A stretch of DNA of 64,000 bases from Proteiniphilum acetatigenes DSM 18083 (GTDB taxonomy: Bacteria; Bacteroidota; Bacteroidia; Bacteroidales; Dysgonomonadaceae). Under the pieces are notes generated by a model, which made no database searches, had not been told where the DNA came from, and was given only the letters and a program-made list of their open reading frames with translations. This document shows positions 3,522-25,915 of this stretch, in pieces. The stretch is from contig NZ_KB905692.1 of assembly GCF_000380985.1 (NCBI RefSeq), positions 186,001 to 250,000 on the forward strand, written 5' to 3'. Position 1 is the stretch's first letter; every line of letters begins with the position of its first letter. The translations under genes were made by a program, and so were the position numbers.

Positions 3522-4820
3522 ATGAAAAAAATCTATTTTAGTCTGATAACAATAACCATATTGTTATTTACGGCCTGCAACAACAATGATGTGCCGGGCA
3601 ATGAGGAAACAAAGGAGACAGGAACGTTGAGGGCGACGATCTCCTTCGGAGGGGAAAGCGTCACACCCAATGCGCAAGCGACAACCAGAGCCGCTTCATC
3701 GACCGCGATTCCCACGGTCAGTTGGGCCAATGTGAACCAGATACAGCTGTTCCTGTATAAAGAGGACGGGGCAATCACATTTACCAAAACCCTGATACCG
3801 GGCGATGCTACAAATCCGGAAGCAAATGATGGGCGGGTTTTCGATATCCCCAACATCCCATTAGGAGACTATAAGCTGGCTTTGATTGCCAATGCCAGTA
3901 ACAGCAAAGACAACGTGACAACGTCAATTAACGGGGGACAAACCTGGGGAACCGAATTTAACAGTAGTAATATCAATCAGGCCACAAAAATCGGCGACCT
4001 TCTTGTGGATTTGAAAGAAAAACAGTTGCCCTACCTGCCTGATACCCTTGTGGGTTTTACTGATCGAAAGGGATATGAAAAGCCATCAGAGATATTTACG
4101 GTTATTGACGTGCCAGTAAGTATTAAAGGAGGGCAGACGGCGGACGTGAAGCCCGGGGCACTCAAACGAGAGATATCATTGATGCGCACCCGTTTCGATA
4201 TCACCACCGTACTTGATGGAACACCTGAAGAAGTGGCTTTCTATAAAGCCAACAGGGAAAAGGTTGATTTCGACACCGATAGCAGTTTTATTGTTGTACA
4301 GTGCCTGCCCAAATATTTCAGTTTGGCAAACGGCATGTCGGCCGAGTCGGATACCACAAGGATACTTGTGGCCGCTACCGGGGATAAGACTTATATGGAT
4401 GCCGATCCTCAGGAAGGGTACAAGTCGAATGGCGATGGTACTCCTAAGATAATCGATGGTCTGTTCACCCGTTGGAATGACATCCGTATTTTCCCGAATG
4501 TAGCAGGTAGAGGCGAAAGTACGGACATAACGGACAAAGAATATTTCATCATTATCTCTGCCTGGGTTGACCTTGAGGAAGGCGAGACTTACACATACGC
4601 CGATGGCAAAAGAGCTTCCAAACCGCAACGTGTATTTTGGTGGGCAAAAATAAATGACCCATTTACCAGGAATGTGATCCGTGAAGTCAATTTAACGCTG
4701 AAATCGGCAGGGTATCTCGAATTCCCCGATGGACCGACTGAACAAGGTGGCCTTACTATCGAAATTGGCGCTCCCGAAGAATGGAATCCTATCATCGAAG
4801 ATACCAATATGGATATCTGA
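3522..4820 (+). CDS. Fimbrillin-type surface lipoprotein (fimbrial subunit 1)
   Basis: The 432-residue product starts with a lipoprotein signal ending in LLFTAC (Cys19 lipidated). Bacteroidales fimbrillins are exported as lipoproteins and then cut after an arginine by a gingipain-like protease, exposing a groove for donor-strand polymerisation. A matching site is visible at TTRAAS (Arg56). The rest is beta-rich, with the typical fimbrillin segments VNQIQLFLYKEDGAI and GDYKLALIANAS, and a late region around residues 340-370 rich in aromatic strands. It heads the operon-like block and is followed by a FimB/Mfa2-like gene. It is most likely a fimbrial shaft or tip protein; which of the two is undecided. 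Confidence 0.72.
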   Translation: MKKIYFSLITITILLFTACNNNDVPGNEETKETGTLRATISFGGESVTPNAQATTRAASSTAIPTVSWANVNQIQLFLYKEDGAITFTKTLIPGDATNPEANDGRVFDIPNIPLGDYKLALIANASNSKDNVTTSINGGQTWGTEFNSSNINQATKIGDLLVDLKEKQLPYLPDTLVGFTDRKGYEKPSEIFTVIDVPVSIKGGQTADVKPGALKREISLMRTRFDITTVLDGTPEEVAFYKANREKVDFDTDSSFIVVQCLPKYFSLANGMSAESDTTRILVAATGDKTYMDADPQEGYKSNGDGTPKIIDGLFTRWNDIRIFPNVAGRGESTDITDKEYFIIISAWVDLEEGETYTYADGKRASKPQRVFWWAKINDPFTRNVIREVNLTLKSAGYLEFPDGPTEQGGLTIEIGAPEEWNPIIEDTNMDI

Positions 4821-4865
4821 TCTTTTTATCGGAAGCGATAAAAAGCAGCGACAATTAACAATCAG

Positions 4866-4921
4866 CCTTTTCCTCTGCCCAGCCCGCCACCGCGCAGGTG
4901 GCTACCGTGCGGGGGAAAAGG
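4866..4921 (+). promoter_or_regulatory. Long intercistronic hairpin between fimbrillin and anchor genes
   Basis: Nested inverted repeats pair CCTTTTCC (4866-4873) with GGAAAAGG (4914-4921). Inside these, CCCGC pairs with GCGGG and CCACC with GGTGG. No T-run follows, so it is not a standard terminator. It sits about 45 bases after the fimbrillin stop and about 40 before the next start. Such structures often stabilise the upstream message or lower downstream expression; that role is inferred. Confidence 0.6.
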
Positions 4922-4963
4922 ATTTCACCAAGCCCTGGTCTGTCTCTAAATAAAACATTAGGA

Positions 4964-5929
4964 ATGAATACGATAAAAGGGATCATCCTCATAACCAGCC
5001 TTATTTTCTTCGCATCGTGTACCTTCGACTATTTCGAAGATGAGACCAATTATATGATATATGCCCCCAAGGCATGCGCCGAACTGAGAACCGATGACTA
5101 CAGGATAGAGGATATACATATCTATATTTATAAAGAAATGCTGGAGAAACAAAAGACAGCCTGTTTCCCCTTTCAGGAGAATCCCCGGATGAAAATGGGA
5201 TATTTCAATTTCAGGCTGTACCCGGGATCGTATTTGAGTTATTGTTTTGCCGACACAGAGGGTCTCAGTTTCAATGATGTGGAATCTTACCGGAGCGCTG
5301 TATTCGGCCTGCCGGAATCCGATAACGGCGAGTACCACTATCCCGGTTCCCTTACCGAGTTTTCAGTAAATGTCATCAATTCGGAAATCGAATATCCGGC
5401 GCCAATAAAAACAGATACCGTCCTTTTCAACAAACGTTATAGCGGAAGAATTTGCATAGCATTCGAAAAATTGACGGATATCAATCCCCTATTGACGTAT
5501 AATAATATAAGCAGCATAAAGATCGAAGCGACCGGAGTAGGCACCTACCAGAACCTTGCCTTATTGACCGATTCGATCCATACGCGTTCGGGCAGATATA
5601 CCCCGTCGGATAAAGTGATGATGGAATGCATCCCCTACGAAAATCCGCTGGAAGGATATCTGGAAAGATATGATTTCGGCATAGACGGCTACTTTTTTCC
5701 CTCGCTGAACGATGAAGAGGAAGGCAGTAGCATCACTCTGTGGATGGATTTCATCGACCACGACGGGAATTCTATACATGCGTTCCCCTTAGGCGTTTCG
5801 GAAACACTCCACATGAATCAAACTATATATATAGGAACTGACGGAGTCAGCACCGTGGTACTGGAAATAGACGGTCCCGAACAATGGGATCCTGGAATAG
5901 AGCATGGCGATGGAGGCATGGGGATTTAA
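4964..5929 (+). CDS. FimB/Mfa2-like fimbrial anchor lipoprotein 1
   Basis: I take the internal ATG that yields MNTIKGIILITSLIFFASC, a clean lipoprotein signal with lipidated Cys19; the longer upstream extension has no signal-like character and runs through the preceding hairpin. The 321-residue product has FimB/Mfa2-family features: a short N-terminal strand, the segment DIHIYIYKEM, a RYSGRICIAFEKL strand and the terminal VVLEIDGPEQWDPG. This family caps and anchors fimbriae at the outer membrane and limits their length. Its place directly after a fimbrillin gene agrees with that role. Confidence 0.72.
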   Translation: MNTIKGIILITSLIFFASCTFDYFEDETNYMIYAPKACAELRTDDYRIEDIHIYIYKEMLEKQKTACFPFQENPRMKMGYFNFRLYPGSYLSYCFADTEGLSFNDVESYRSAVFGLPESDNGEYHYPGSLTEFSVNVINSEIEYPAPIKTDTVLFNKRYSGRICIAFEKLTDINPLLTYNNISSIKIEATGVGTYQNLALLTDSIHTRSGRYTPSDKVMMECIPYENPLEGYLERYDFGIDGYFFPSLNDEEEGSSITLWMDFIDHDGNSIHAFPLGVSETLHMNQTIYIGTDGVSTVVLEIDGPEQWDPGIEHGDGGMGI

Positions 5930-5962
5930 ACAACAAATAACTAAATAAACATATACTTGGAG

Positions 5963-6568
5963 ATGAAACATTTTTTACGATACGCTATATTATCGGGGCT
6001 TTTTCTTCTTCCGGTTTTAGCCGGTCAAACTATCCGTGCGCAAGCCATCAAAACCAACATCCCGCTCACCCTGACAGGTAATCCCAATATAGGCTTTGAG
6101 TGGTCGGTAGGACGGCAAATGACCGTCAATGCCGACGTCTTATGGGCTCCTTACATGTTCAAGAAAAACGAAGAAGTTTTCCGGGCATTGATAGGAAGCG
6201 TCGATTTCAGGTATTACATCAATCCCAGGTATTACTATACGAACGACCTGTGGGATGGATTTTATGTCGGTCCTTATGCTATGGCGGGCAATTTCAATAT
6301 TGGGTTGAAAAGAAAGGATGAAAGCAAAACCAACTACCGCCATAAGGGATGGGGCGTATCGAGCGGGATTACCTGCGGATACAAGTTCTACCTGTCCGCC
6401 CGGTTCAGGCTCGATGTGAACATAGGAGCGGGTTACGCGCATCTTCAATATGATAAGTACCAATTGGGTGGTGAATACGCCAATTTTCCCCTTGAAATAA
6501 AAAAGACAAGAGGCTACGTCGGCCCTACCAAGGCCGGAGTACATATTATTTATAATATTTTTAAGTAA
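5963..6568 (+). CDS. DUF3575-type outer membrane protein
   Basis: The product is 201 residues with a signal peptide ending IRAQ. The mature part opens AIKTNIPLTLTGNPNIGFEW and continues through alternating aromatic strands (VGPYAMAGNFNIGLK, RLDVNIGAGYAHLQYDKY), as in DUF3575 proteins, which are predicted small outer membrane barrels frequently encoded in Bacteroidales fimbrial clusters. I choose ATG over the TTG six bases upstream. The next gene begins 9 bases after the stop, so the two are co-translated. Its biochemical role is unknown; assembly or anchoring of the surface structure is a context inference. Confidence 0.75.
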   Translation: MKHFLRYAILSGLFLLPVLAGQTIRAQAIKTNIPLTLTGNPNIGFEWSVGRQMTVNADVLWAPYMFKKNEEVFRALIGSVDFRYYINPRYYYTNDLWDGFYVGPYAMAGNFNIGLKRKDESKTNYRHKGWGVSSGITCGYKFYLSARFRLDVNIGAGYAHLQYDKYQLGGEYANFPLEIKKTRGYVGPTKAGVHIIYNIFK

Positions 6569-6577: not shown

Positions 6578-8473
6578 ATGTCTAACTATTATAGAACAAT
6601 ATCCGTCAGTAACGCTGTCTTAGTGGTCCTCCTTATGGTCATTTTCACCGCCAAGGTTCTGTCGCAGGACGAAAGAATGGCGGCAGAGGGAGACCGGAGA
6701 GCCCGTGGCATTGAAGCCAAAGCCGACCGCGGATTCGCCCGGCAGGATTTCGACAAAGCCATGCAGATCTATGAGACGGCATTCAAAGACAATATACTGA
6801 GCCCGGACTATTCGGCAAAATTGCACCTGAAAACGGCCCGCCTATACCTGACCCTGCTCGAGTATGTATCGGCAATACCTCACTACGATGCCGCCATGGC
6901 ATTAAACGACGATCTGTTCGACACGTCCGATGTATGCAATTATCTGGATGCCTTGCGCTTTTCCGGACAAAAAATGAAAGCGATCGGAGTAGCCAGGAAA
7001 TACGCTTATCGCGACGCGTATCATTCCGACCGGCGTTTCCAGAATATTTTACATGCGTTCGATTACGAAGAAGGATTCCTGCCTATCGGCGCACCCGAAT
7101 TCAATGTGGAAGCGCTGGAAGAAATAAATACGGCCAACTCCGAATTCTGGGTCGGCGAAGTGAATGGCGAATATTTCTATGCGACCAGCAACAGCCGCTT
7201 CCATGATCCCCACAAAAAGTTTTACCATCGCACCCGGTATTTCCCGTTGGGCTCCAAAGCGTCAGGCGGTCCGGAAACAGGGAAAAGAGGTGAAAACTCA
7301 CTGTTGGACAGGATCCCCCAGGCCATGCAAAACGGCGCGCTTTCTCTGTCGAACGACCTGGCGAGCATGATCATCACCGGCGTTCGTTACGAAAAAGGGG
7401 GAAGTATCGCTATCACCGATGAGGGAATTAACACCTTTCAGACAAAACTCTATTCCTCACGCTACAATACCAGGCGCAAGGGATGGTCATCGTTTACGGA
7501 ACTCTTCCCCGGCGGCGAAAAACATTCTTATTCGCACCCGTTCCTGTTCAATAACGACCAATCGTTCCTGTTCGCCTCCGATATGCCGGGAGGATACGGA
7601 GGATACGACATTTACGTTATCCACTGGGATGAAGAAAAAAACGACTGGGGATTGCCGGTAAACCTGGGAGCCCACGTGAATACCGCAGGAGATGAAATTA
7701 CACCCTCATTTTTTGAGAATTCACTCATTTTCGCCTCTAACGGCCACACCGGATTCGGAGGATATGACCTCTACGCCATAGAATATATGGACGGAAAGGT
7801 TACCGTAGGCAGTTTAATGCATTTCAGCTATCCGGTCAATACGGTTTTCAACGATTTCAACATGCTCAGGATCGATGAAAACAGCGGTTATATTATTTCA
7901 GATCGCAATCCTGCGAACAAAGATGACATCTATTATTTTGAGCGGAACATCAATTTCGGGACCTCAACCTCATCGTCCGCAATGTCGGATAGTAAGTTGA
8001 TTTTAAGCAATCTGATCAATCTCCCGACCAACAACCTGCCTTCGGCCGCTCCCCGCGTGGAGGTATTGCCCAGGCATACCATTTCAGAGCTTGCGCTAAG
8101 CCTGTTCTTCGATTTTGACTCTTTTGAACTGAACAACAGGGCGCTGGTACAACTCAACGACTGGATTGCCCATGTGGACACCAGCCGTATAGACTCTCTT
8201 CTAATGGAAGGGTATGCCGATGAGTTCGGGGAAGAGAAATACAATGTGGAATTGTCGGAAAAAAGGGCAAACACAGTCGCCGCTTACCTGAATTCAGCCG
8301 GGATCAATGTCGACCTGAAGACTGTAGGAAAAGGCATGATACCCCTGTTGGACGATTTAAAGAAAGAAGAGGGGGAAACTTTCGATAATATCCCTCTGTC
8401 AATCGCATTGAAAAAACCGGTGTGGCTGACCAAAGAAGCAAGACGTGTAGATATAATAGCAACAATCAAATAA
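6578..8473 (+). CDS. TPR-PD40-OmpA periplasmic anchor protein (PorE-like architecture)
   Basis: The 631-residue exported protein has an N-terminal hydrophobic signal. TPR-like helices follow at about residues 40-165, then a beta-propeller-like middle with two recognisable PD40 units (GGYGGYDIYVIHW and GFGGYDLYAIEY, about 330-415), and a C-terminal OmpA peptidoglycan-binding domain (about 505-631; FFDFDSFELNN, MEGYADEFG, LSEKRANTVAAYL). The order matches PorE-type proteins of the type IX secretion apparatus but without an evident carboxypeptidase-regulatory domain or lipobox. It would tie an outer membrane or surface assembly to the cell wall. The gene lies inside the fimbrial operon, 13 bases before the next gene. 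Confidence 0.78.
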   Translation: MSNYYRTISVSNAVLVVLLMVIFTAKVLSQDERMAAEGDRRARGIEAKADRGFARQDFDKAMQIYETAFKDNILSPDYSAKLHLKTARLYLTLLEYVSAIPHYDAAMALNDDLFDTSDVCNYLDALRFSGQKMKAIGVARKYAYRDAYHSDRRFQNILHAFDYEEGFLPIGAPEFNVEALEEINTANSEFWVGEVNGEYFYATSNSRFHDPHKKFYHRTRYFPLGSKASGGPETGKRGENSLLDRIPQAMQNGALSLSNDLASMIITGVRYEKGGSIAITDEGINTFQTKLYSSRYNTRRKGWSSFTELFPGGEKHSYSHPFLFNNDQSFLFASDMPGGYGGYDIYVIHWDEEKNDWGLPVNLGAHVNTAGDEITPSFFENSLIFASNGHTGFGGYDLYAIEYMDGKVTVGSLMHFSYPVNTVFNDFNMLRIDENSGYIISDRNPANKDDIYYFERNINFGTSTSSSAMSDSKLILSNLINLPTNNLPSAAPRVEVLPRHTISELALSLFFDFDSFELNNRALVQLNDWIAHVDTSRIDSLLMEGYADEFGEEKYNVELSEKRANTVAAYLNSAGINVDLKTVGKGMIPLLDDLKKEEGETFDNIPLSIALKKPVWLTKEARRVDIIATIK

Positions 8474-8486: not shown

Positions 8487-10946
8487 ATGAACTACAAAAA
8501 GAATGTGATCAGAGTAGCGTTTTCGGCAATCCTGTTTCTGTTTCTCTGCGGAAATGCCCGGGCGCAATACATGCCGATTGTTTACGACAGAACGTACGGC
8601 AATGATATGGAGTATCAACATACCTGTCCTGTTTCGCAGGGGGAAGTAGCGCTTGTCGGGAACAGCGACCGGCAAACGACCGTCACATGGGTGAAGAGAG
8701 ACGGTGAGGTTTTATTTTCCCAGGCGCTTCCCAAAAGGTTTACCATCGTAAACAATGTTTACCATATCGGCGACAATAAATTGCTTATTATCGGACAGTC
8801 GCAGGATTGGACATCCCGCAGGACCGAAAAGAATATCTGCGGAAGAGCGGTCATTGTAGACAATACCGGTACCGTCCTGAATGATGTGTACGCTGGGAGC
8901 AACGGCAGTGAGTTCTTTTGTGGAGGCCAGCTCAAAGACGGGAACCTTATTTTAGGCGGCTATGAACCAAATGCCGCAGGCGTACGTCTGGGGATGCTGA
9001 CCAAGGTCGATACGACAGGCCAGTCAATCTATAAATATGTTTCTGAAGAGAGCGGCCCGTGCATCGGGTTTGAAGTGCTGGGCAGTATGACCGAATATGT
9101 GCATGCCGTATTCACCTCCGCCGAAAGCACGGTCTCTTCGGTTGCAAGCCTCGACAGCAAAGGGAAAGTGGTTTTCGTCACCAAATTCCCCGAAGAAGGG
9201 CTTGCGGTCAACAGGATGATCACAACCCAGGATGATTTCCTCTTTCTTATCGGGAACAGCTATGTGAGCGGTGGGCGTGTCATCAAGATACGGCCGGAAG
9301 GGGATATCGTATTCAACAAGGAGATCGTTCCTTCCTCATCCAATACCACGATCGACCACCTGTTTATGACAAACAACGGCAACTTATTGGTAGGAGGCAA
9401 CGGTGGCGACGGCAAAAGTTACTATTCCCTTTTACGTAACGACGGTACGGAACTGCAGAAATACATCGTTTCCGGTTCTATTTCCGGTATGGGGATCAAT
9501 GCCGTTACGGGAGAATCGGTAATCGCGAGCTTCGACAACGCAACCGGAAGAGGCACCATCACCGGCCTGTCGAAAGACGGACGGCAGACATACCAGAAAT
9601 CCACGGACGGGAACTTCGATGAAGTACATTTCACATCCAACGGCATCTTTCTGGCCGAAAGCCTTTCGGGACGGCTTTGCATGTTATCACCGTCAGGCGA
9701 GTTATTATTCGACCGTCATGCCACGGAAGAAGGTAAGACCACCTTCGAAGAGGTCATATTTGTTTCCAACGGAGATATTCTCTTTAAAGGGGTAAAGAAC
9801 AGGCTCGTCAAATTAAGCCACGGGTTATATGTATCCGATATAAAGATCAATAAACCTGTTGATGGATATATCACCGCGCTGTTCAGCGTGACCCTCACGG
9901 GCTATCCCACTTCAGACCAGGGCGCACCAATGCCGGTACGCGTGGAATATTTCACGAAAGACGGGACGGCAAACCAAAAGGACCATTACAGCCCGGTAAA
10001 GGGAAGCCTCTCCTTTATCCCTGCAAGCGACGGCGCAGGACGCTATATGACCAAACAGGATATTGAAGTGCCCATCAAGACCAACAACCTGTTTGAAGGA
10101 CAAAAGATGTTCGAATTGAACTTGGCCAATGTAGAACATAGCTATTTGGTAAAGCCGGTCGGCGTAGCCACGATAGAAGACCAGGAAGCTGTGATAAAAC
10201 AGATAAACACGCAGAACGGACTGGAAGGACAAAAGGATGTGGTATATGAATTGGGAATATTCAAAACCAACGGCCAAAAACTGATCAATGCAACCGGGTC
10301 GGATATCATCATTGAAGGTAATTACGGGAAAGGTACAGCCGACAAACTAGACTTCGACATGGGCGTCGCCCCGAGGCTTGTCATCGGGAAAGGCGCTTCC
10401 AGCGGCTCGTTCCATGTAAACACGCTTATCGATACCCGGTACGAATTACCCAAATCGGTAGTAGTTGATTTCAACAATATACTCACGATCAATAATGTAA
10501 CAATAGGGTTTGAAGGAACTGTGCTCAGTTGCCGGGGAATGATCATCGACCAGCCGGCCACCATCGGCATTACCTCGTTGGGAGACCACGGACGTATGAA
10601 CAATATCGTTTCGGGATTTTTCAAACTCGCCCTCCTGCGGGCATCCGACGGGCACCCCCTGACCAATACGACAGGAGGAGATATCGGCATTGCATGTTCT
10701 ATCCTGCCCCAAACAACGGCTGGGGAAGGAAAAGACTTCGTCCTTACCAATATGCATAATTTAAGGGTATTGGGTGACGGGAACCGCAGTGCGATCAATC
10801 TGGACGGTATCGTGTTGTTCAATCAGGAGAGTTCGGGTGTGAAGAAAATTGTGATAGGGATCGATTCCATCACCAAACCCGACAATGCGCCTGATATCAT
10901 TGTAGCACCGAAAATGGCATCCGCCGAATTTTCGATTATTGAATAA
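8487..10946 (+). CDS. Large secreted protein with propeller-like N-terminus and Calx-beta-like repeats
   Basis: The 819-residue product has a signal peptide ending NARAQ. Residues 30-450 contain repeated units of the form NGDILFKG and DGNLILGGYE, typical of delta-60/propeller repeats. Two regions at about 460-570 and 580-700 resemble Calx-beta domains (VEYFTKDGTANQKDHY, FELNLANVEHSYLVKPVGVATIED). No type IX tail is visible at the C-terminus, which ends after a strand-rich segment. It is probably a cell-surface or secreted component made with the fimbrial genes; function is not recognised. A strong terminator follows, closing the first transcription unit. Confidence 0.65.
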   Translation: MNYKKNVIRVAFSAILFLFLCGNARAQYMPIVYDRTYGNDMEYQHTCPVSQGEVALVGNSDRQTTVTWVKRDGEVLFSQALPKRFTIVNNVYHIGDNKLLIIGQSQDWTSRRTEKNICGRAVIVDNTGTVLNDVYAGSNGSEFFCGGQLKDGNLILGGYEPNAAGVRLGMLTKVDTTGQSIYKYVSEESGPCIGFEVLGSMTEYVHAVFTSAESTVSSVASLDSKGKVVFVTKFPEEGLAVNRMITTQDDFLFLIGNSYVSGGRVIKIRPEGDIVFNKEIVPSSSNTTIDHLFMTNNGNLLVGGNGGDGKSYYSLLRNDGTELQKYIVSGSISGMGINAVTGESVIASFDNATGRGTITGLSKDGRQTYQKSTDGNFDEVHFTSNGIFLAESLSGRLCMLSPSGELLFDRHATEEGKTTFEEVIFVSNGDILFKGVKNRLVKLSHGLYVSDIKINKPVDGYITALFSVTLTGYPTSDQGAPMPVRVEYFTKDGTANQKDHYSPVKGSLSFIPASDGAGRYMTKQDIEVPIKTNNLFEGQKMFELNLANVEHSYLVKPVGVATIEDQEAVIKQINTQNGLEGQKDVVYELGIFKTNGQKLINATGSDIIIEGNYGKGTADKLDFDMGVAPRLVIGKGASSGSFHVNTLIDTRYELPKSVVVDFNNILTINNVTIGFEGTVLSCRGMIIDQPATIGITSLGDHGRMNNIVSGFFKLALLRASDGHPLTNTTGGDIGIACSILPQTTAGEGKDFVLTNMHNLRVLGDGNRSAINLDGIVLFNQESSGVKKIVIGIDSITKPDNAPDIIVAPKMASAEFSIIE

Positions 10947-10968: not shown

Positions 10969-11008
10969 AGTGGGGCGCCTCCCACAGAGGGAGCCCCCAC
11001 TTATTTTT
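10969..11008 (+). terminator. Rho-independent terminator closing fimbrial unit 1
   Basis: A GC-rich stem pairs GTGGGGCGCCTCCC with GGGAGCCCCCAC around an ACAGA loop and is followed by TTATTTTT. It lies 22 bases after the Calx-beta gene and before the second fimbrillin gene, so the second fimbrillin pair needs its own promoter or readthrough. Confidence 0.85.
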
Positions 11009-11070
11009 ATCGGTACGCTCGTGTTCTATATGACTATTTTATTTTTTTGAAACCAAAACGTATTGCAATA

Positions 11071-12443: not shown

Positions 12444-13469
12444 ATGATGAATACAAGCACATTCAAAACAGGCACACATCATTTGTATGTAGTAACCGCT
12501 TTGTTGTGGGTCGTCCTTACAATTTCCTGCAACGACCGGAACGTAGTCGATCCGCAAGAATCGGCCGAGTCGCGCCTGTCGTTACAAATGAGAGCGGCGA
12601 ATGCGGAAACCTTTGCGGCCAATACCTCCCTTTATATGTTCAACGCCAGCGACAGATTTTGGGAGAAAAAACTGAACGTAACGCAAGAAGGGAACAAGCT
12701 TTCCACGGATGTAGCCATTGGCACTTGGAACATCGTATTGTTGACCTGCGATAAGGAAGAGTATATCCGGCAAAACATCACCTTGCCGTCTCCCCTATCG
12801 CCAATGGGAAGTGCAATCATGTGGCAAACGCCTGTCACAACAGACGGGCTATTTTTGTCCCAGACCCCTTCCGAGTTGAGGTATGGATTGCTGCGGGATG
12901 TTGTGATAAAACAGGATGAAGTCACTGAAAAAAGTACGCTCCTATACCGCAATGTGGCCAAAGTGCAAGTAATCCTGAAACACTACGAGGGTTTCGACCC
13001 GGTCACGGATGATAACAAGGCTATGGCGTATGCGGAACTATTGGATGTTCCCACATCATTGGCATGGACTGGAAAACTATATCCGAACGGGGATTCACCG
13101 GCTGTTTCGGATAAACCGATACGGGAAAATTTCGAGTTTGATGGAGCAGGTAAAGCCGACACGCTGAATTTTATCGTGCCGGCCCATAGGGGCGATGACG
13201 CTTTCATCACGAACGAAGAGGGCATATTGGTGCAAAATCCGGCAGCCGTGGATACCACGGAACACAAATTAAAGTTGCGTGTTTCCATGCCGTCAGGCGG
13301 TAAGGAATATTTCGGGAAAAGCGCCAATGGCATAGAAATCCCTATCGTGCCGAAAATCAACAGCATTATGCAGGTGAATGTGACATTTCATGGTAAAACC
13401 TCGCTGGATATCAAGATCGGTGTAAAACCGTGGGAAGACTGGATCATCCAGGAGGAAGAATTTCAATAA
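12444..13469 (+). CDS. FimB/Mfa2-like fimbrial anchor lipoprotein 2
   Basis: This 341-residue lipoprotein has a hydrophobic signal ending VVLTISC (Cys29). Two consecutive ATG codons follow an AGGAG; the second is slightly better spaced, so the start may be three bases downstream. Family-like elements are NTSLYMFNASDRFWEKKL, GTWNIVLLTCDKEEYI and the C-terminal VNVTFHGKTSLDIKIGVKPW ending in an acidic tail, as in FimB/Mfa2 proteins that terminate and anchor fimbriae. Its position immediately behind fimbrillin 2 supports a dedicated subunit/anchor pair. Confidence 0.75.
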   Translation: MMNTSTFKTGTHHLYVVTALLWVVLTISCNDRNVVDPQESAESRLSLQMRAANAETFAANTSLYMFNASDRFWEKKLNVTQEGNKLSTDVAIGTWNIVLLTCDKEEYIRQNITLPSPLSPMGSAIMWQTPVTTDGLFLSQTPSELRYGLLRDVVIKQDEVTEKSTLLYRNVAKVQVILKHYEGFDPVTDDNKAMAYAELLDVPTSLAWTGKLYPNGDSPAVSDKPIRENFEFDGAGKADTLNFIVPAHRGDDAFITNEEGILVQNPAAVDTTEHKLKLRVSMPSGGKEYFGKSANGIEIPIVPKINSIMQVNVTFHGKTSLDIKIGVKPWEDWIIQEEEFQ

Positions 13470-13532
13470 TCACCGGATTTAGCGGGTATAAGTATTCAGA
13501 ATTTTGATTTGGTAAACAAAGGAGATGTGGTT

Positions 13533-17282: not shown

Positions 17283-17352
17283 TCACTCTGACTTTAAAAG
17301 GAGGGTGAGGGTATGAGAGAAATTTGGTATGGTTAATAAAAAAGATGTGGTT

Positions 17353-20300
17353 ATGAAGTTTGAAAATACTAAGAGCATAGGTTACGGAGACAGATGGAAG
17401 CATGTCTTTTCCAGAATGTTTCTTATGGTTTTCCTTGCTGTGTTTTCTTTCTCACTCTATGCGCAGGACTCTGATAATACTGAGTTTTGGTTCGTTGCCC
17501 CCGATGCGTCTAAATCACATGCCGACCGGCCAACATTTTTGATGATTACCACGGGCGACAAACCCGCTACGGTTACAATCAGTATGCCGAAAAATAAGTA
17601 TTTCAAATCCAGAACAGATACGATAATGTCTATGGATGCAAAGTCTCATTGGAAATTTGAATTTAAAGATGTACAGGTAGATAGTGTTGAGAATACCTAT
17701 ACAAGTTCCGGGAAGGTGACAGACAAAGGAATTCTTATCACATCCACAGCGCCGATCTCCGCTTACTATCAGATTGACGGGGGAAATCAAAAGGAAATAT
17801 TCACATTGAAAGGGAAGAAAGCGCTGGGAGAAGACTTTTATATGCCTTTTCAACAAGCTTACGTCAATAGTGGTGCTTCTTACAAAGAGGATGCTTTTCG
17901 TCAAATACAGATTGTCGCATCCGAGGATGAGACTGAAGTAACAGTGGTACCTGCCAATGGCAATCTGATAGATCTCAGCGACAACAGTATCGTGAATAGT
18001 GGGTCCTCGAAAACTAAAAAACTTAATAAAGGGCAGACTTTGTTGTGGCGGGGAGAAAAATTTGATACCCAACTGACAGGGAGCAGGGTTACTTCTACCA
18101 AGCCTATTGCGGTTACGCTTTTTGAAGATTGTAATTCAGTTGTGGGTCAATCGAGCATTGATCCTATCGGCGACCAAATGGTTCCGGTGAACAAGCTCGG
18201 ACAAAATTACATCGTTGTGAAAGGATTCTCTTACGGGGGAAATGTTACCGATCATGTCGGTGTATTGGCTGTAGAAGACAATACCGTTATAAAAGTTGGC
18301 GATTTTGAGGAACAAACTCTTCAAAAAGGAAAATATTATTCTTGGAATTTAGGCGTGGGAGCTACAAATCCACAGGCATACTCCGTGACATCGAATCGTC
18401 CGGTATATTGTATGCACCAGTCAGCTGCCGGATCCGAAGTTGGCGGCTCTTTGCTGCCCAGTTTGTATTCCATATCGGCACGTCGTATCACTTTCTTTAA
18501 GGGAGACATGAATATCAACTCAATGTTTTTGGTATTTCGCGAATCGGCCAAAGATGGATTTGTAATGGATGGTGATTCCCTCAAAGTTACAGTTGGCGAG
18601 GTCGGCTTCGAAGATTGGCGATATGCCAAGGTAGACATCAAGGCAAGCGGAGGCAACAGGGTGTGTACCATAGAAAACGACAAAGGAGCTTTTTCGTTAG
18701 GATATTTTCTCGGAGCAGCCACTACATCTTCATTATATGGTTATTTTTCGGCTTTCGGGACATTCTCTTTCGAGAGTGACGTCATAGCACATTGTGGCGA
18801 TAGTTATACATTTTCTGCGCCCTATGCGAAATCATATAAATGGCTGTATAACGGAGAAGAAATTTCTAATGAAGCTACGTTTGTAGCGACAAAAAGCGGA
18901 GAATACACATTAACTGTTGACCAAGACCAATATAAGATAACAGACAAAACGTATCTGAAACTGCAAAACTTCAGCCATATTCTTAGCGCACCTGAGCAGT
19001 TACTTGAAAACAAAGCATATAACTTCACGATCAAACTGAACCCGGATGACGACCCGGATAATTATTTCAGCACCACTTATCTGTGGAATTTCGGAGAAGG
19101 GGCATCAGTCCCTACCTCAACAGAAGCCGGGGTGGAAGTTTTTTATTCATCATCCGGAACGAAAAATATTTCATTAACAATCTGGAACCATGATGCCAAT
19201 TGCGATACCACCATTACCCGGACAATAGAGGTCCTTGATAAATCGGAAGGAATAGTATTGTATTGGAGGACCGATACAAAAGACCGCGACTGGAATAATG
19301 TAAAGAACTGGGCGAAAGACCCGGAAGGACAGAACCCCATTGAAGTAATACCTGCGGACTATACGAAGGTGTACCTTCCGGGAAAAGCGGCCAACTATCC
19401 TTCGCTGACGCAAGAAAATACAGACTGGACCCATTACGGACAGCCCGAAGCGGACGAGATCGTTTTCAGGTACGGCAGCGAACTGCACTACCAGCATGAA
19501 CTGAAATACAACAAGGCATACATCAATTACAACTGGGGGTATTACGGGGATAGTCCGGCAAGCGGACAACAACCTCCCCTTTCTTTGGAAAACGCAGAAA
19601 TATTGCAGCGCGATGCATGGCATATACTTGCCGCACCTTTGAAAAGCATGGCCTCAGGGGATTTCTCCTTAGCGGGACGTCCCTTCTCCTGGCAAACACA
19701 GTTTACGGTAACGACTCCCGGAAGTGTGGCGGAGGGGGATCTCTCTGAAGCGTTCCCCACGAACGACGTGGCGCTCGCAACCACAAACAACGCCATCGCG
19801 GTAAAAATGGCAGGATACGAAAGTGGAAAAGTCGGTCATAAAGACCAAACCAACCTGGAAGGACTTAAGGGGGTGATCGAAATTCCCTATTTCGAAAACG
19901 AGTCCCTGAAAGCGCATTATACCGCGCACAACTATGATGCCCTCGCAAAGAAGAGTTATTTCTACTATTTCGACACCAGGACGTTGAAACTTCTCAATTC
20001 CCCGCTGGGATCGATGAGCCGCAGCGACGAGGCGTACCGATTCGTATATGAGACAGAGCTGAACGAACCGCCCTCCAACGCAGTGTATGAAATGCCGCTG
20101 AATACGGAAGGCATGGGGGACAGCAACGAAGTGATGGTCGGCAACCCATTCCTTGCTCCTATCGACGCAAAGGCATTCGCCGAAGAGAATACGGAAAACA
20201 TAGATGATTCGCAGGGATATAAACTCTTGTCGGAAGATGAAAAGATATGGGAACAGCACTATTTTACAGAGGGCAGTATAATCCCGGCCTGGAAAGCCTT

Positions 20301-21117
20301 TATCGTGACTGTAAAACCGAATGTCACCACGCTTTCATTCCCGTTTACGGTAACCCTCCCGTCGCAAACGGAGAATGAGGAAAATGGTTTGGATGCGTCT
20401 GTAACCGGACTCCGCTCCGGATCGGCAGACGGCGCCCTTTCCGTGCATATACAGAAAGCGGGGATTGAATCGGGTGACTGTGCCATACTACAAAATAATC
20501 GCAATACGAACAATACCGAAATTAGGAAAATGATCCTGCCGGAGGGCCACGAAGCGCCAGAAATATTTTTTATGTCCTCCGGTGGGGATCTTTCCTATTT
20601 GGTCAGAAATCTCGGACAAGGCGAAAATGAGGTACCCATAGGGGTAAAAACTTCCGATGTACACTCCTGCCTGGCCCTTGAATTCCGGAATATAGCGGCG
20701 TTTACCGCTTCCACCGGCGCAAAAGCGATCCTGGTGGACAAACACCTGAATGTAAGGCAGGACCTTGTACACAGCCCGGTCTATCGCTTTACTCAACAAG
20801 CATCGGGTTTGGACAAACAATATGTCGATAAGAACCGCTTCGTGCTGCAATTGGGCGGCGAAACCGGAACAATCGGACAGGAAGATCCGGAAGACGGGAT
20901 CAATATAATGTACCGTTCTGGAATATTGAAGGTCACATCAGACGAAAACATAGATGCCGTATCGGTGTATGACCTGTACGGACGACTGGTATTTTCAGTT
21001 CATTCAGTCAATCTTTCCCAATACACCCATCCTATAGCGTTACAGGGAAAGCTATTCCTGGTCCGGGTAAAAACGGCCTCTGGAAAAGAGAAGGTAAAAA
21101 AGATAATGGGGAATTGA
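17353..21117 (+). CDS. Giant adhesin-like protein with type IX sorting tail (copy 2, tandem paralogue)
   Basis: This is a 1254-residue paralogue of the preceding gene with the same domain order: signal ending LYAQ, IgGFc-binding-type N-domain (FWFVAPDASKSHADRPTFLM), PKD-like domain (SGTKNISLTIWNHDANCDT) and type A sorting tail (NIDAVSVYDLYGRLV). Identity is uneven. The N-terminal domain differs at many positions, while the stretch QPEADEIVFRYGSELHYQH and the ~60 residues before the sorting tail are almost identical at DNA level, suggesting conversion between copies. I choose the ATG at the place equivalent to copy 1; an in-frame ATG 24 bases upstream is possible. The spacer after copy 1 is only 70 bases. 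Confidence 0.8.
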   Translation: MKFENTKSIGYGDRWKHVFSRMFLMVFLAVFSFSLYAQDSDNTEFWFVAPDASKSHADRPTFLMITTGDKPATVTISMPKNKYFKSRTDTIMSMDAKSHWKFEFKDVQVDSVENTYTSSGKVTDKGILITSTAPISAYYQIDGGNQKEIFTLKGKKALGEDFYMPFQQAYVNSGASYKEDAFRQIQIVASEDETEVTVVPANGNLIDLSDNSIVNSGSSKTKKLNKGQTLLWRGEKFDTQLTGSRVTSTKPIAVTLFEDCNSVVGQSSIDPIGDQMVPVNKLGQNYIVVKGFSYGGNVTDHVGVLAVEDNTVIKVGDFEEQTLQKGKYYSWNLGVGATNPQAYSVTSNRPVYCMHQSAAGSEVGGSLLPSLYSISARRITFFKGDMNINSMFLVFRESAKDGFVMDGDSLKVTVGEVGFEDWRYAKVDIKASGGNRVCTIENDKGAFSLGYFLGAATTSSLYGYFSAFGTFSFESDVIAHCGDSYTFSAPYAKSYKWLYNGEEISNEATFVATKSGEYTLTVDQDQYKITDKTYLKLQNFSHILSAPEQLLENKAYNFTIKLNPDDDPDNYFSTTYLWNFGEGASVPTSTEAGVEVFYSSSGTKNISLTIWNHDANCDTTITRTIEVLDKSEGIVLYWRTDTKDRDWNNVKNWAKDPEGQNPIEVIPADYTKVYLPGKAANYPSLTQENTDWTHYGQPEADEIVFRYGSELHYQHELKYNKAYINYNWGYYGDSPASGQQPPLSLENAEILQRDAWHILAAPLKSMASGDFSLAGRPFSWQTQFTVTTPGSVAEGDLSEAFPTNDVALATTNNAIAVKMAGYESGKVGHKDQTNLEGLKGVIEIPYFENESLKAHYTAHNYDALAKKSYFYYFDTRTLKLLNSPLGSMSRSDEAYRFVYETELNEPPSNAVYEMPLNTEGMGDSNEVMVGNPFLAPIDAKAFAEENTENIDDSQGYKLLSEDEKIWEQHYFTEGSIIPAWKAFIVTVKPNVTTLSFPFTVTLPSQTENEENGLDASVTGLRSGSADGALSVHIQKAGIESGDCAILQNNRNTNNTEIRKMILPEGHEAPEIFFMSSGGDLSYLVRNLGQGENEVPIGVKTSDVHSCLALEFRNIAAFTASTGAKAILVDKHLNVRQDLVHSPVYRFTQQASGLDKQYVDKNRFVLQLGGETGTIGQEDPEDGINIMYRSGILKVTSDENIDAVSVYDLYGRLVFSVHSVNLSQYTHPIALQGKLFLVRVKTASGKEKVKKIMGN

Positions 21118-21203: not shown

Positions 21204-21956
21204 ATGAGAACTAAACTGATTTTACTGACAGTAAGCGTTTTATTTACCAGTCTCTGTTATCCGGGGAATATACCGGACAGGCAAAAGAAAGAAAGAGGAA
21301 GTCCAAAACAGAAAATCCAGGTGGAAGAGTTTCACGACCGGAATACAGGTTGTAAGATACGCTACGAATATTACAAGGGTGCCGACGGGAGAAAAATCAA
21401 ACACGGCAAATTTACCAGGAAATGGTCGATGGAGAAAACCGACCGGAGTATATGGTCGGGTTCGGAAAATATTACCGCCACATTTGTCAATGATAAAATC
21501 AATGGAACCGTAGTGATCAATTGCGAAAAATTCAAGTGGAAAAGAAAAAGCGAATTTATTAAAGGAAAAGGAAGGAAAATCACATGGACTCCCGTGGAAG
21601 CGTATGTAGCCCGCAATTTACGGTTAGAGGTCAAGAACGACACATTGGCCGGCTCGTTTAATTTTGCATTGGGAAACTACAAGTACGAAGCCATGGGATC
21701 GGTCAACGAAATGGGTGAAATGAAAGGCAAATATACGCTCTACCAGTTGAAAGAATCCGACGACCTCTTAAGGGATCTAAAGAAGGGGGAACAGGATTGG
21801 ACTATTCTGGAGCAATTTCTGTGCGATCCGGATTATACGTACCAGGATGCAACCCCGACGGTCACGGAGGTGCAATTAGGATATCCCGGGACTTCAAGGG
21901 GAGAGCATCTACACATAAAGATACCCCGTTTGCGACTGAGCATGAATCCATTATAA
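21204..21956 (+). CDS. Exported protein of unknown function
   Basis: The 250-residue product has an N-terminal signal-like segment (MRTKLILLTVSVLFTSLCYPG) followed by a lysine-rich mature region. Repeated short motifs of the kind GRKIKHGKFTRKW and GEMKGKYTLYQ recall MORN-like or antitoxin-like beta-hairpin repeats found in exported Bacteroidota proteins, but I do not recognise a family with confidence. Being in the same strand and spacing pattern as its neighbours, it may belong to the surface block. No catalytic motif is visible. Confidence 0.6.
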   Translation: MRTKLILLTVSVLFTSLCYPGNIPDRQKKERGSPKQKIQVEEFHDRNTGCKIRYEYYKGADGRKIKHGKFTRKWSMEKTDRSIWSGSENITATFVNDKINGTVVINCEKFKWKRKSEFIKGKGRKITWTPVEAYVARNLRLEVKNDTLAGSFNFALGNYKYEAMGSVNEMGEMKGKYTLYQLKESDDLLRDLKKGEQDWTILEQFLCDPDYTYQDATPTVTEVQLGYPGTSRGEHLHIKIPRLRLSMNPL

Positions 21957-22083: not shown

Positions 22084-24357
22084 ATGAAGAAATATACTCC
22101 GTTTAATTTTAGTCTGTTATTTTTTATAATCGCGTTTACTTTTATGATCACGATCTCCCCATCGTGTTCGATAAAAAAGAATTACCGGAAGTTAGATATA
22201 GAACGGCTGTTCATGCAAACGACGAAACCCGAAATCACCTTTGCCGACCAGGGAGGCATAGAAGGACTGGATGGTTCCCGGTCGGTATCGGAAGAGGTTT
22301 CATTCTCGGAATACTCCGGTGACCTTTCCCAAAACGAGGTACTCGTCAATGAGATGGATAAACTGGATACGACCAAGACATACAGATTATCCGGTGTAGT
22401 GGTAAAAGCAAAATCGAATTTTGCCACGGAAAGGGACGGCAGGGTGCATGTGGATTTTGACATTATCGCCCCCGTAGACATACTCGACCCATACTGGCGG
22501 CTGACACTGGCCCCTTTCCTGATAGACGGGGACAGCATCACGCCGCTGGACACCATATTAGTAACAGGCGAAGGGTTCAGGGACAAGCAGTTGGGCGATT
22601 ACGAGGCATACCAGGATTTTCTGAGCACTATCGTGGATCCGTCGGCTTATGACTCTTTGTTCGTTGACTGGAAAGGGATGAACAAGGATATCTACAAAAT
22701 GCAAAGGCGCAACTACAATGATTACAGGCGCAATTATGACCTGATGATGGACTATGCCAACTGGAAGAAAATGAACGAAATGGAATTTCTCCGGATGGAG
22801 GCCATTGCAAGACGGCATAAAAAGCACATGCAGTCACGCTATTGGCGCAAGTCGGATAAGAAAGCCTTCAGGCAGTTGGATAAAAATAAAGGGATCGATA
22901 CGCTGGGTATCTATGGGCAATATATGGACAAATACAAGAAAGACTACACAAGCTACCTTAAAAGGCAATTCTCTTTCGACTGGGTCGATTCGATCCACCC
23001 CGACATCAATATCCATGCCCACAAGGACAGCATAATGCGACGGAGCCATATCCCGCGAAAATACAGGGATATCCACCAAAAGGGATTAACCCTGCGGGAC
23101 CTGAAGGCGAAACCGTTCACGAAAGAAGATTCGGCAAGAATAGCAAAGAGGCATTATCTGATCGATGAGATAGTGCTCAATGATATGAATATCGACCGCA
23201 AGGACGAGATATTCAGGGAGGTGGTAGAATTCCCCCTTCCCGGAGAAGAAGCGGTGTTAAGGGTAGATACCGTGATCAGCGCCGAGGTCGATTTCATCTA
23301 TCCCTACAAGCAGCCGTGGAAGATCGATAAAGGTACTAAAAAGCTGGAAGTGGTCTTGGCCTCGATGGTGGAGGGGGCGGACAAATCGACATTCGTCTTT
23401 CCCCTTTCGGATACGCTGACTTACTTCATCGCCTCGTTATCCCAATTGGCGGACGAATCAATGGTCACCGAACGGAAAATGCTCCATAAGAATATGGTGG
23501 ACAACCAAAGCATTTACCCCAATTACCGGACGGGAAAATCGTACCGCATCAAAGATCTTAAAAACCCGGAGATATTTGACAAAATAGTCGAGGCTTATCA
23601 AATTTATAACAATGAAGCAGACCTGGTGGTTGACAGCGTGTCGGTCCGCGCATATACCGATCTCACGGGATCGTGGCATGAGAACTACGAACTGTCGCAA
23701 AACAGGGCGCAAGAGGCCGCCGATTATCTAAAACAAAAAGGGGTGAGGACGGCTGTGCCCAAGGCGGCGGGAGAAGACTGGCCTACATTGGCAAAGGAAG
23801 TGCAGGCACATAGAAGCCTGCTGTACCGGCAGGCAATACTGGATTACCTTACCAACGCGATATACCCCGACATGACCGAAGAGAACATAAAAACGGATTT
23901 TCCCGATGATTATAAGACCATCAAAGAGGAGATATATCCTAAACTGCTGCGTTTTGACGTGACGCTACACATCAACCGGCCCGGCATAGAAGAAAATACG
24001 TTGCAGGAAACTTATCGTGAGGATTATGCCGAAGGAATAAAACTGTTGAGGGAAAAAGAGTATATGGACGCTTTAGACAAATTGGCCAAATATGCCGACT
24101 ATAACACAGCGCTGGCATTGGTCTGCCTGGGTTATAACGATAAAGCCCAGGAAGTGCTGGAGGCTTTGCCCGAAACCGGCAGGAACGAATATTTACTGGC
24201 CATTGTCAAGGCAAGGAAAGAGAATAAGAATGAAGCCGCGAAGCATCTTCAAAGGGCATGTGAGCTCAATCCCGAATTATATGCCCGTACCAAGTTGGAC
24301 TCGGAAGTAAGGGAATTGGCCGATGAACTCAATTTATGGGATACGCTGAATAATTAG
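22084..24357 (+). CDS. Lipoprotein with OmpA-like and TPR-like C-terminus
   Basis: The 757-residue product has a lipoprotein signal ending ITISPSC (Cys28). The N-terminal third is beta-rich (LSGVVVKAKSNF, VHVDFDIIAPVDILDPYW). A central basic, aromatic helical region (about 200-300; KMQRRNYNDYRRNYDLMMDY) follows. Residues about 505-560 carry the OmpA-like signature VRAYTDLTGSWHENYELSQN with RAQEAADYL, and the last ~110 residues form TPR-like helices. It probably sits in the outer membrane facing the periplasm and contacts the cell wall or partner proteins. It is the second cell-wall-linking candidate in the block, besides the TPR-PD40-OmpA protein. The exact family is not recognised. Confidence 0.65.
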   Translation: MKKYTPFNFSLLFFIIAFTFMITISPSCSIKKNYRKLDIERLFMQTTKPEITFADQGGIEGLDGSRSVSEEVSFSEYSGDLSQNEVLVNEMDKLDTTKTYRLSGVVVKAKSNFATERDGRVHVDFDIIAPVDILDPYWRLTLAPFLIDGDSITPLDTILVTGEGFRDKQLGDYEAYQDFLSTIVDPSAYDSLFVDWKGMNKDIYKMQRRNYNDYRRNYDLMMDYANWKKMNEMEFLRMEAIARRHKKHMQSRYWRKSDKKAFRQLDKNKGIDTLGIYGQYMDKYKKDYTSYLKRQFSFDWVDSIHPDINIHAHKDSIMRRSHIPRKYRDIHQKGLTLRDLKAKPFTKEDSARIAKRHYLIDEIVLNDMNIDRKDEIFREVVEFPLPGEEAVLRVDTVISAEVDFIYPYKQPWKIDKGTKKLEVVLASMVEGADKSTFVFPLSDTLTYFIASLSQLADESMVTERKMLHKNMVDNQSIYPNYRTGKSYRIKDLKNPEIFDKIVEAYQIYNNEADLVVDSVSVRAYTDLTGSWHENYELSQNRAQEAADYLKQKGVRTAVPKAAGEDWPTLAKEVQAHRSLLYRQAILDYLTNAIYPDMTEENIKTDFPDDYKTIKEEIYPKLLRFDVTLHINRPGIEENTLQETYREDYAEGIKLLREKEYMDALDKLAKYADYNTALALVCLGYNDKAQEVLEALPETGRNEYLLAIVKARKENKNEAAKHLQRACELNPELYARTKLDSEVRELADELNLWDTLNN

Positions 24358-24473: not shown

Positions 24474-25172
24474 ATGGGAACAATCAGGTATTTATTGTTA
24501 ACGACATGCATATTCATGTCATTCAACGGCTTCGCGCAATATACGCCCGAGGCGGTGACGTCCGAATGGGAAGTAGTTTCCCAGGGAAAATTACAGAAAA
24601 AGCCTCGATTCAGGGACCCGATGATTACGGTGAGATTCATATATGAGAATGGAGCCCAGTTCATGAACCTCTCCTTGAAGTACATGTTCACCGATGCCGT
24701 GTTTGAGGAAGCCGTCCCCGTGGAATATTTCAAAGATGAGAAACTCGGGGTTGAGACGGAAAGCGGTAAGTATGAATTAAAAGCCGCCCGGTATGCAAAA
24801 GCCCGCAGGATGAATACCGTGGCGCAGAAAATTGCGGATATGAGGGTCGTATTCGGAGGAAACCTTTCATTCCTGGCCGATAAACCGGTGAAGAAGTTTG
24901 TCGTGCACTATGCGCAGGGTTACCAAAATATCGACCTCAATCCCCAGGAAGCGGCTTTGTTGAGAAAATCATATACCGATTTCTTGTCGCTTCTTCCGGC
25001 GCCAGCGCCCACTCCTGCGGCAAAAAAACCGGTATCGGCGCCGCCGCACCGCCAGGTCCGGCAAAGTGATGAAAAGGGCCGTATTGACGAGGCTGATACG
25101 CAACAGGCCGTTCCACAGAAAAAAGAGTCTATCGATGAATTACGGTCACGCGCCAAAAAATGGAATAAATAA
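24474..25172 (+). CDS. Small exported protein, unknown function
   Basis: The 232-residue product has a clear signal peptide ending NGFAQ. The mature part has a compact mixed alpha/beta region (about 25-165) and a proline- and charge-rich C-terminal tail (LPAPAPTPAAKKP onward, ending ELRSRAKKWNK) that looks disordered or linker-like. I recognise no family. It lies between two heptamer arrays in inverted orientation. Same-strand context suggests an accessory periplasmic or surface role in the block, which is inference only. Confidence 0.6.
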   Translation: MGTIRYLLLTTCIFMSFNGFAQYTPEAVTSEWEVVSQGKLQKKPRFRDPMITVRFIYENGAQFMNLSLKYMFTDAVFEEAVPVEYFKDEKLGVETESGKYELKAARYAKARRMNTVAQKIADMRVVFGGNLSFLADKPVKKFVVHYAQGYQNIDLNPQEAALLRKSYTDFLSLLPAPAPTPAAKKPVSAPPHRQVRQSDEKGRIDEADTQQAVPQKKESIDELRSRAKKWNK

Positions 25173-25195
25173 CTTTTAGTTATGAATTATGAGGC

Positions 25196-25237
25196 AGTTC
25201 TCAGTTCTTAGTTCTTAATTCTTAGTTCTTAATTTTA
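25196..25237. repeat. Heptamer array, unit AGTTCTT (six units)
   Basis: Six contiguous 7-base units read AGTTCTC, AGTTCTT, AGTTCTT, AATTCTT, AGTTCTT, AATTTTA and end 6 bases before the next start codon. The unit is the reverse complement of the AAGAACT-type array upstream of the previous gene. Confidence 0.88.
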
Positions 25238-25243
25238 TACCAC

Positions 25244-25915
25244 ATGTCACATCGCAGATTACCAAATACAGACAACGCCCGTATCAGGGCCTTGAAATCG
25301 GCAATTCAAAAAGCGGCCGACACCGATTTTCCGGAACTGTCGTTCTCAACAAGCATCCTTGATGAGGCCAAAAGCGTGTTGACAGAATTCGAACGCTTAA
25401 CTACCCGTTACCAGCAGTTCTACGACATACAGGTAAATGCGGGGCATTCTTTCGCCAAGACAACCCACAATGCCCGTATCTATGTTTCCCATTTCATACA
25501 GGTACTGTATATGTGTGTGATGCGCTCCGAAATAAAAGAAGAACAACTGGATCTATACGGATTGGAAGATGCCCGTTTGGTTGTCCCCGATATAACCTCT
25601 CATGAACAGTTGCTGGAATGGGGGGAAAAAATTATCCGGGGAGAGTACCGACGTATCTCACACAGCGGTGTGCCGATCTATAATCCATCCATCGCCAAGG
25701 TGAATGTGATGTTCACCCTTTTCAAAGAAGGGTACCAGACGCAGAAACTGCACCAGAAGGCCACCACGTGCGCCTTGCAGGAGGTAGCTGCCTACCGGGA
25801 AAAAGTGGATAAGGTCATTCTGGTGATATGGGAAGAGGTGGAAAAGCACAACACCGGCTTGCCACCCGAAAAACAGCTTGCCCGGAATCGCGAATACGGT
25901 ATCATTTACTATTAA
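25244..25915 (+). CDS. Cytoplasmic helical protein, unknown function
   Basis: The 223-residue product has no signal peptide or membrane segment and is largely helical, with segments such as ARIRALKSAIQKAADTDFPE and LDEAKSVLTEFERLTTRYQQF. The middle holds THNARIYVSHFIQVLYMCVM and the end IILVIWEEV-like helices. No enzyme motif is visible and I do not recognise the family. It is the last gene of the same-strand block and is followed by a strong terminator, so it may be co-transcribed with the envelope genes, although its location differs from theirs. Confidence 0.6.
   Translation: MSHRRLPNTDNARIRALKSAIQKAADTDFPELSFSTSILDEAKSVLTEFERLTTRYQQFYDIQVNAGHSFAKTTHNARIYVSHFIQVLYMCVMRSEIKEEQLDLYGLEDARLVVPDITSHEQLLEWGEKIIRGEYRRISHSGVPIYNPSIAKVNVMFTLFKEGYQTQKLHQKATTCALQEVAAYREKVDKVILVIWEEVEKHNTGLPPEKQLARNREYGIIYY

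Follow-up and report, generated by a model that had tools for sequence, protein, structure and literature searches.

A conserved gene cassette of Proteiniphilum acetatigenes predicted to encode a type V fimbria with exchangeable tips on a fixed base

Results

Gene content of the cassette

An earlier note, made from sequence alone, proposed a surface system in a window of 64,000 nucleotides from Proteiniphilum acetatigenes DSM 18083 (contig NZ_KB905692.1, positions 186,001 to 250,000), in which fimbrial pairs, wall-linking proteins, and giant type IX secretion adhesins would be encoded side by side. Here, we follow up this candidate, a cassette of genes referred to as g1 to g13 (Table 1). An open reading frame check together with Pfam and NCBIfam scans placed all of g1 to g13 on the + strand at the coordinates given in that note, and the coordinates and family matches confirm that the genes it named are present on the same strand. 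The note had extended the unit over ~22 kb to position 25915. This extent stands for g1 to g10-g12 but not for g13; because g13 lacks an evident export signal and occurs in Proteiniphilum only, the unit would end at g10-g12 and g13 is probably not part of the system.

Table 1. Genes and signals of the cassette, with positions in the window.
Feature	Position	Strand	Remark
g1, fimbrillin-like lipoprotein, 432 aa	3522..4820	+	lipobox at C19
g2, lipoprotein, no family	4898..5929, start probably ATG 4964	+	lipobox
g3, DUF3575 outer-membrane barrel	5957..6568, start probably ATG 5963	+	PF12099
g4, TPR-PD40(propeller)-OmpA protein related to PorE, lacking lipobox and CRD	6578..8473	+	
g5, signal peptide, beta-propeller, Calx-beta-type domains	8487..10946	+	Calx-beta E 4e-8
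Terminator-like hairpin and T-rich tract, g5-g6 gap	10969..11012	+	RNA fold
g6, FimA-family pilin lipoprotein	11047..12435, start probably ATG 11071	+	PF06321 E 9e-13
g7, Mfa2-family fimbrial anchor lipoprotein	12444..13469	+	PF08842 E 4e-8
g8, giant type IX cargo, IgGFc and PKD head, shared stalk, type C tail	13509..17282, start probably ATG 13533	+	
g9, second cargo in tandem, design as g8	17329..21117	+	last 625 aa 76% identical to g8
g10, exported 250-aa protein, no family assigned	21204..21956	+	in 9/15 loci, partial in a tenth
g11, OmpA-TPR lipoprotein, relative of the DUF3868-OmpA-TPR partner of DUF3575	22084..24357	+	OmpA E 4e-7, TPR
g12, exported 232-aa protein, no family assigned	24474..25172	+	in 8/15 loci
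g13, without evident export signal	25244..25915	+	found in Proteiniphilum only

Genes g1 to g5 form a conserved block

We compared the cassette with 14 loci beyond the window that had enough flanking sequence, from Proteiniphilum, Dysgonomonas, and termite-gut metagenome-assembled genomes (MAGs), and surveyed 66 Dysgonomonadaceae genomes. One of the 14 loci, G036, consists of almost identical DNA; it is therefore not an independent locus and was left out of the identity figures. In all 14 loci, g1 to g5 are contiguous, in one order and on one strand. Because this holds in 14/14 loci with identities to the window proteins of 31-84% outside G036 (31-45% for g1 alone), the conserved gene order is beyond chance. 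Specifically, g5 was detected in 12 of the 66 family genomes, representing three genera, and g4 (E <= 1e-40) in exactly these 12, the two genes being adjacent at all 13 places; in one locus (L026), a frameshift splits g5. By name, g5 was also found in Proteiniphilum sp. X52, UBA5384, several Dysgonomonas, one Tannerellaceae fragment, and two MAGs filed as Prevotella, which we take to be misfiled family members. It was detected in none of 390 other sampled Bacteroidales genomes (from a sample of 392 that included two family members). Thus, the co-occurrence beside fimbrillins in other genomes that the earlier note suggested as a check was found within the family, in 14/14 loci and three genera.

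In the window, the block is preceded by genes for an HK/AraC hybrid histidine kinase (639-2447) and an HU-HIG protein (3012-3389), and a PNPase core gene follows g13 at 26150. These three are neighbours of the cassette in Proteiniphilum only, and the flanks differ among the three genera, indicating that the block stays together while its surroundings change. In at least one other locus (L026:3619-4623), an AraC regulator lies upstream in place of the HK/AraC hybrid and HU-HIG genes.

Pilin and anchor lipoproteins

Lipoboxes are present in g1, g2, g6, and g7. Protein g6 reached 49.2 bits with the FimA model (cut-off 21.4) and matched PDB entry 4jg5 (E 3e-6), and g7 reached 33.7 bits with the Mfa2 model (cut-off 21.2). 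In having FimA/Mfa2-family proteins with lipoprotein signals, the cassette fits the type V fimbriae; the Mfa1 major-subunit model NF038041, which needs >130 bits, was not reached by g1 (34.3 bits) or g6 (62.1 bits). The earlier note counted two fimbrillin/anchor pairs. While g6/g7 is such a pair, the first one is weaker: g1 scored 20.9 bits with the Pfam Mfa2 model, just below the cut-off of 21.2, and its profile aligned to that of g7 (hhalign 92%, E 6e-7), whereas g2 matched no family in the Pfam and NCBIfam scans, and a profile comparison with g7 gave no support for g2 as an Mfa2-type anchor. Across 14 sequences, g2 carries the invariant motif SCT.DYFEDE.NY. The top PDB folds for its structure model, a poor one with a pLDDT of 51, are Mfa4, at an E of only 7e-3.

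The base genes g3, g4, and g5 and the distal gene g11

Protein g3 matched PF12099 with an E of 9e-42 (142.7 bits; cut-off 21.1) and the Autotransporter barrel with an E of 5e-7, and is 67-82% identical in all loci outside G036. Protein g4 has an OmpA domain (E 6e-11), and its TPR/PD40 part scored 143.5 of 620 bits with the CHU_0125 model and 135 of 600 with the PorE model, in both cases far short of the cut-off. In OmpA domains, a D and an R residue have a role in wall binding, and both are conserved in g4 in all 15 sequences. In a strict sense, the description of g4 as a PorE-like anchor was not supported: judged by the PorE family NF052230, g4 stays below 600 bits, it has no lipobox, and the stretch from residue 457 to 510 leaves no room for the CRD, the third domain, while a true PorE (863 bits) is encoded elsewhere in the genome (G000:C3).

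Every intact copy of g5 has 819-824 residues, with a mean column identity of 77% and identities of 61-84% across loci. Its structure model reaches a pLDDT of ~90 at residues 80-350, corresponding to the propeller, and the best fold matches include 8-bladed propellers; the Calx-beta-type domains that follow are poorly modelled. As no sorting tail was found, g5 was rejected as type IX cargo. Outside G036, mean identity to the window protein is 72% for g3, 67% for g5, and 56% for g4, compared with 37-44% for the pilin-type genes g1, g2, g6, and g7 (g1 37%, g2 43%, g6 43%). With g3, g4, and g5 better conserved than the pilin-type genes and g5 of near-fixed length, the pattern of g5 is that of a structural part rather than a diversifying adhesin.

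The C-terminal half of g11 aligned to DUF3868-OmpA-TPR proteins (hhalign 99.2%, E 1e-19), with no DUF3868 match at the N-terminus of g11. Of 79 Bacteroidales genomes sampled, 15 carry DUF3575 genes, and in 16 of 19 Bacteroidales regions, several of which share a genome, hidden Markov models identified an OmpA-type gene as the neighbour. DUF3868 with OmpA and TPR was found in three typical regions scanned by Pfam, some of the matches lying below curated cut-offs. Fimbrillins near DUF3575 were confirmed by Pfam in L087, L094, and L093; in L086, the gene after it is BatD-like rather than a fimbrillin. A relative of g11 directly adjoins DUF3575 in L097 and L104. Locus L093 (G000:C2:291000-308000) is a second DUF3575 locus of this genome; it encodes an OmpA-type protein and a 1067-aa lipoprotein with several Mfa_like_1 domains.

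The earlier note had regarded DUF3575 together with a wall-linking OmpA/TPR protein as foreign to fimbrial loci. The combination is common in Bacteroidales, and BT4227-4236 of Bacteroides thetaiotaomicron is listed with DUF3868/DUF3575/fimbrillin-type genes (PMC10434189). The cassette shares with such loci the DUF3575 barrel and an OmpA-TPR protein beside fimbrillins but differs in that the PorE-like g4 lies beside the barrel, g11 is at the far end, and g5 and type IX cargo are added. A second precedent is PorE, a peptidoglycan-binding protein (PMC7192894) that enters into a complex with type B cargo and the barrel PorP (PMC9143113). Here too, a barrel, a TPR-propeller-OmpA wall linker, and type IX cargo come together, yet the barrel of the cassette is of the DUF3575 type, g4 has neither lipobox nor CRD, the tails are of type C, and the true PorE lies elsewhere. 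By analogy with this complex, g3 and g4 may hold a surface structure to the wall.

Giant type IX cargo with a common C-terminal half and variable heads

Proteins g8 and g9 have IgGFc_binding domains (E 1e-39 and 2e-34, respectively) and PKD domains, and end in type C T9SS sorting signals (NF033708; 51.3 and 49.2 bits, cut-off 40). Because these tails score above the cut-off and the genome encodes a type IX system, including the sprA/sov translocon gene (SprA, 2665.7 bits), we classify both as type IX cargo. Across 13 cassette cargo proteins, the final 625 residues could be aligned over >=70% of their length in every pair (78/78), whereas for the N-terminal parts an alignment covering half their length was obtained in 13 of 78 pairs only. 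The heads are of the IgGFc type in the window, G036, X52, UBA5384, and G013, and of the FG-GAP type in G013 and the second cargo of UBA5384; others carry PKD_5 (G017, G024), Ig/SprB-like domains (G025), or weak beta-helix repeats (G003, G008a, L026). The profile of the C-terminal half also matched full-length relatives in other Bacteroidales families, and the idea that this half is specific to the cassette was rejected; rather, the ~620-aa region appears to be a stalk module that different type IX proteins can reuse. Carriage of the cargo on plasmids was likewise rejected, as only distant partial matches were found. Among the relatives without evident fimbrial neighbours (L133, L134, L135, L138, L139, and L140), one has an FG-GAP head; in the shared C-terminal region, Pfam recognised only PKD and the sorting tail. 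Elsewhere in the window (43640-47887), the sensor region of a hybrid two-component regulator matches T9SS_PorZ at 125 of 260 bits, which probably reflects shared propeller repeats only.

The view that giant type IX adhesins are missing from the known fim/mfa loci is contradicted by Mfa5 of Porphyromonas gingivalis, a type IX-dependent protein of 1228 aa seen at the fimbrial tip (PMC7835359). Mfa5 genotypes share a C-terminal half with a sorting tail and differ in the N-terminal half, some strains have two tandem mfa5 genes, and genotypes D and E lack the VWF head (PMC8313007). The Mfa1 fimbria of P. gingivalis and the cassette thus have the same layout of pilin and anchor lipoproteins followed by type IX cargo of >1200 aa with a constant C-terminal half, a variable head, and tandem cargo genes. 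The likeness of g8 and g9 to Mfa5 is one of described design, as giant proteins with type IX tails directly behind pilin and anchor genes. Mfa5 heads are VWF or unrelated, whereas cassette heads are IgGFc, FG-GAP, PKD, and others, with no VWF in g8 or g9. A link to a genuine Mfa1/Mfa2 cluster is provided by L137 from another family, in which two Mfa1-family subunits (390 and 383 bits), Mfa2, and a further lipoprotein are followed by a 1567-aa cargo with the same C-terminal half (E 3e-82); one of these Mfa1 subunits matches P. gingivalis Mfa1 structures (E 5e-58).

Because P. gingivalis has this design, we considered that the cassette is an ordinary fimbrial island, i.e., an mfa-type cluster with accessory genes that have no joint function. 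Its FimA/Mfa2/Mfa5-like parts and the DUF3575-OmpA pair are indeed all known (PMC8313007). However, the P. gingivalis cluster is described as mfa1-mfa5 only (PMC7835359), with no DUF3575, TPR-propeller-OmpA, propeller/Calx-beta, or OmpA-TPR genes, and g5, although not detected in the 390 other sampled Bacteroidales genomes, is retained at 61-84% identity and near-fixed length in every locus that has the block. We regard this explanation as distinctly improbable.

A different possibility is that g3-g4-g5 is a dedicated attachment platform for type C tails, equivalent to PorP-PorE for type B, to which the fimbrial genes are secondary. The tails of g8 and g9 are the only ones of type C detected in this genome, 12 of the 15 above the cut-off in the family lie inside the cassette, and g4 resembles PorE, for which a complex with PorP and cargo is known (PMC9143113). 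Three loci (G012, G022, and L021), however, keep g3-g5 with no such cargo in the slot, type C tails occur in genomes that lack g5 (G063, G007), and loci across Bacteroidales that lack this cargo also link DUF3575 with fimbrillins. We consider a platform of this kind improbable.

The genes behind g5 are exchangeable

Behind g5, a g6/g7-type pair and a giant cargo follow in 11 of the 14 loci, with small extra genes in Dysgonomonas. With g1-g5 syntenic in all loci, g4 and g5 never apart, and the related pair and type IX cargo following in most loci, the proposal that the genes belong together is upheld. In L021, the slot instead holds genes for an Mfa2-like protein, an 885-aa FimD-like protein (131 bits, below the FimD family cut-off of 170), and a FimA/BACON protein; G022 and G012 have the same layout as judged by gene size and a g7-like match, and in G025 the cargo slot is followed by a second, FimD-like layout. 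This alternative set resembles FimA/FimD fimbriae in combining a FimD-like tip protein with a FimA-like pilin but differs from them in standing behind g1-g5 and in its FimD match below the cut-off. About half of the loci also carry the tail genes g10-g12.

Dysgonomonas-type slots (L021:18181-19652; similar in L026, G003, G008a, and G022) contain small linked genes, for which family scans cover L021 and L026 only. Before g10, these encode an outer-membrane barrel of ~201 aa, a bactofilin of ~150 aa, and a protein of ~130 aa with no family; directly after g5, Dysgonomonas-type loci encode a 166-aa protein with no family.

The locus of G036 (L028/L029) is 99.9-100% identical to the window over 1-23000, falls abruptly to 78-85% at ~23000-26000 (the end of g11, g12, and g13), returns to 98-100% over PNPase, and diverges again past 31000 (comparison of window positions 1-35000). 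At the sequence level, this pattern is that of a recombination mosaic in which g11-g13 have been swapped.

Transcription signals

The intergenic gaps of the cassette are mostly short. The 100-base gap between g5 and g6, which folds at -32.3 kcal/mol (single fold), contains a strong hairpin that argues against one simple operon. UBA5384 also has a hairpin here (-31.3 kcal/mol, single fold), although its sequence is different, while X52 has no evident hairpin in this gap; hairpins also follow g1 and g13. The Bacteroidetes promoter pattern did not match anywhere in the cassette, and in the window its matches were no more frequent than expected by chance; a scan for sigma-70-type promoters likewise gave no excess. 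An invertible promoter was considered and rejected because only short, unconvincing inverted repeats lie upstream of g1. The window scan detected no tRNA and no Rfam RNA.

The hairpin bears on the possibility that two or three separate surface systems, i.e., a fimbria of g1-g5, a second fimbria of g6/g7, and stand-alone adhesins g8/g9, are neighbours through surface-island selection without forming one physical structure. In line with this, the g5-g6 hairpin is present in two of three Proteiniphilum lineages, cargo with the same C-terminal half stands alone elsewhere, and the slot after g5 is exchangeable. By contrast, the order is constant in three genera, a lost cargo slot is replaced by a FimD-like tip set within the same flanks, and most IgGFc domains (8 of 10) and type C tails of the family fall within the cassette. 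Separate systems seem fairly unlikely to us.

Discussion

Based on the observed gene content, order, co-distribution, conservation pattern, head swapping, and sorting tails, we suggest that the cassette probably encodes a fimbrial system of type V (FimA/Mfa1 superfamily), in which the base is fixed and the tip exchangeable. In our working model, g1/g2 and g6/g7 would provide the lipoproteins that serve as pilin and anchor, with export through Sec and the lipoprotein route, while g8 and g9 would be exported by the genome's own type IX system and act in an Mfa5-like manner as tip or surface adhesins. The conserved C-terminal half of the cargo would serve as stalk and sorting tail and the head would set the ligand. 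The g3 barrel, g4, and g11 would build a mount in the outer membrane and cell wall, working as PorP-PorE does for type B cargo, and g5, secreted and of near-fixed length, would be an assembly or docking part of this mount and not a variable adhesin. More tentatively, we speculate that a type V fimbria and type IX cargo could be joined in one hybrid organelle on a common, dedicated mount (g3, g4, g5, and g11), with a plug-in tip slot that swaps whole adhesin sets between species; this is possible, but we would not yet count on it.

Several points weigh against a single fimbrial system. The base and tip genes may be transcribed separately or attenuated at the g5-g6 hairpin. The poor model of g2 does not settle its fold. 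The D of the OmpA motif of g11 is lost in G012 and G025, and g10-g12 are absent from several loci. The six giant proteins that share the ~620-aa C-terminal half but have no evident fimbrial neighbours indicate that the stalk module is broader than fimbriae. Finally, physical assembly, tip position, wall anchoring, and ligand binding are inferred here from the gene data.

We found no description of this cassette in the literature searched, which is weak evidence given that it comprised open-licence papers only. Whereas Mfa5-like cargo and the DUF3575-OmpA pair are already known, a fixed base that includes the PorE-like g4 and an invariant g5 is new. The cassette bears on two questions, namely the mounting of type V fimbriae in the outer membrane and the way in which a tip adhesin delivered by type IX secretion is joined to a shaft exported as lipoproteins. 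The co-inherited five-gene base and its tip slot would provide concrete mount candidates in g3, g4, g5, and g11, and its variants provide naturally occurring tip exchanges in anaerobes that can be cultured.

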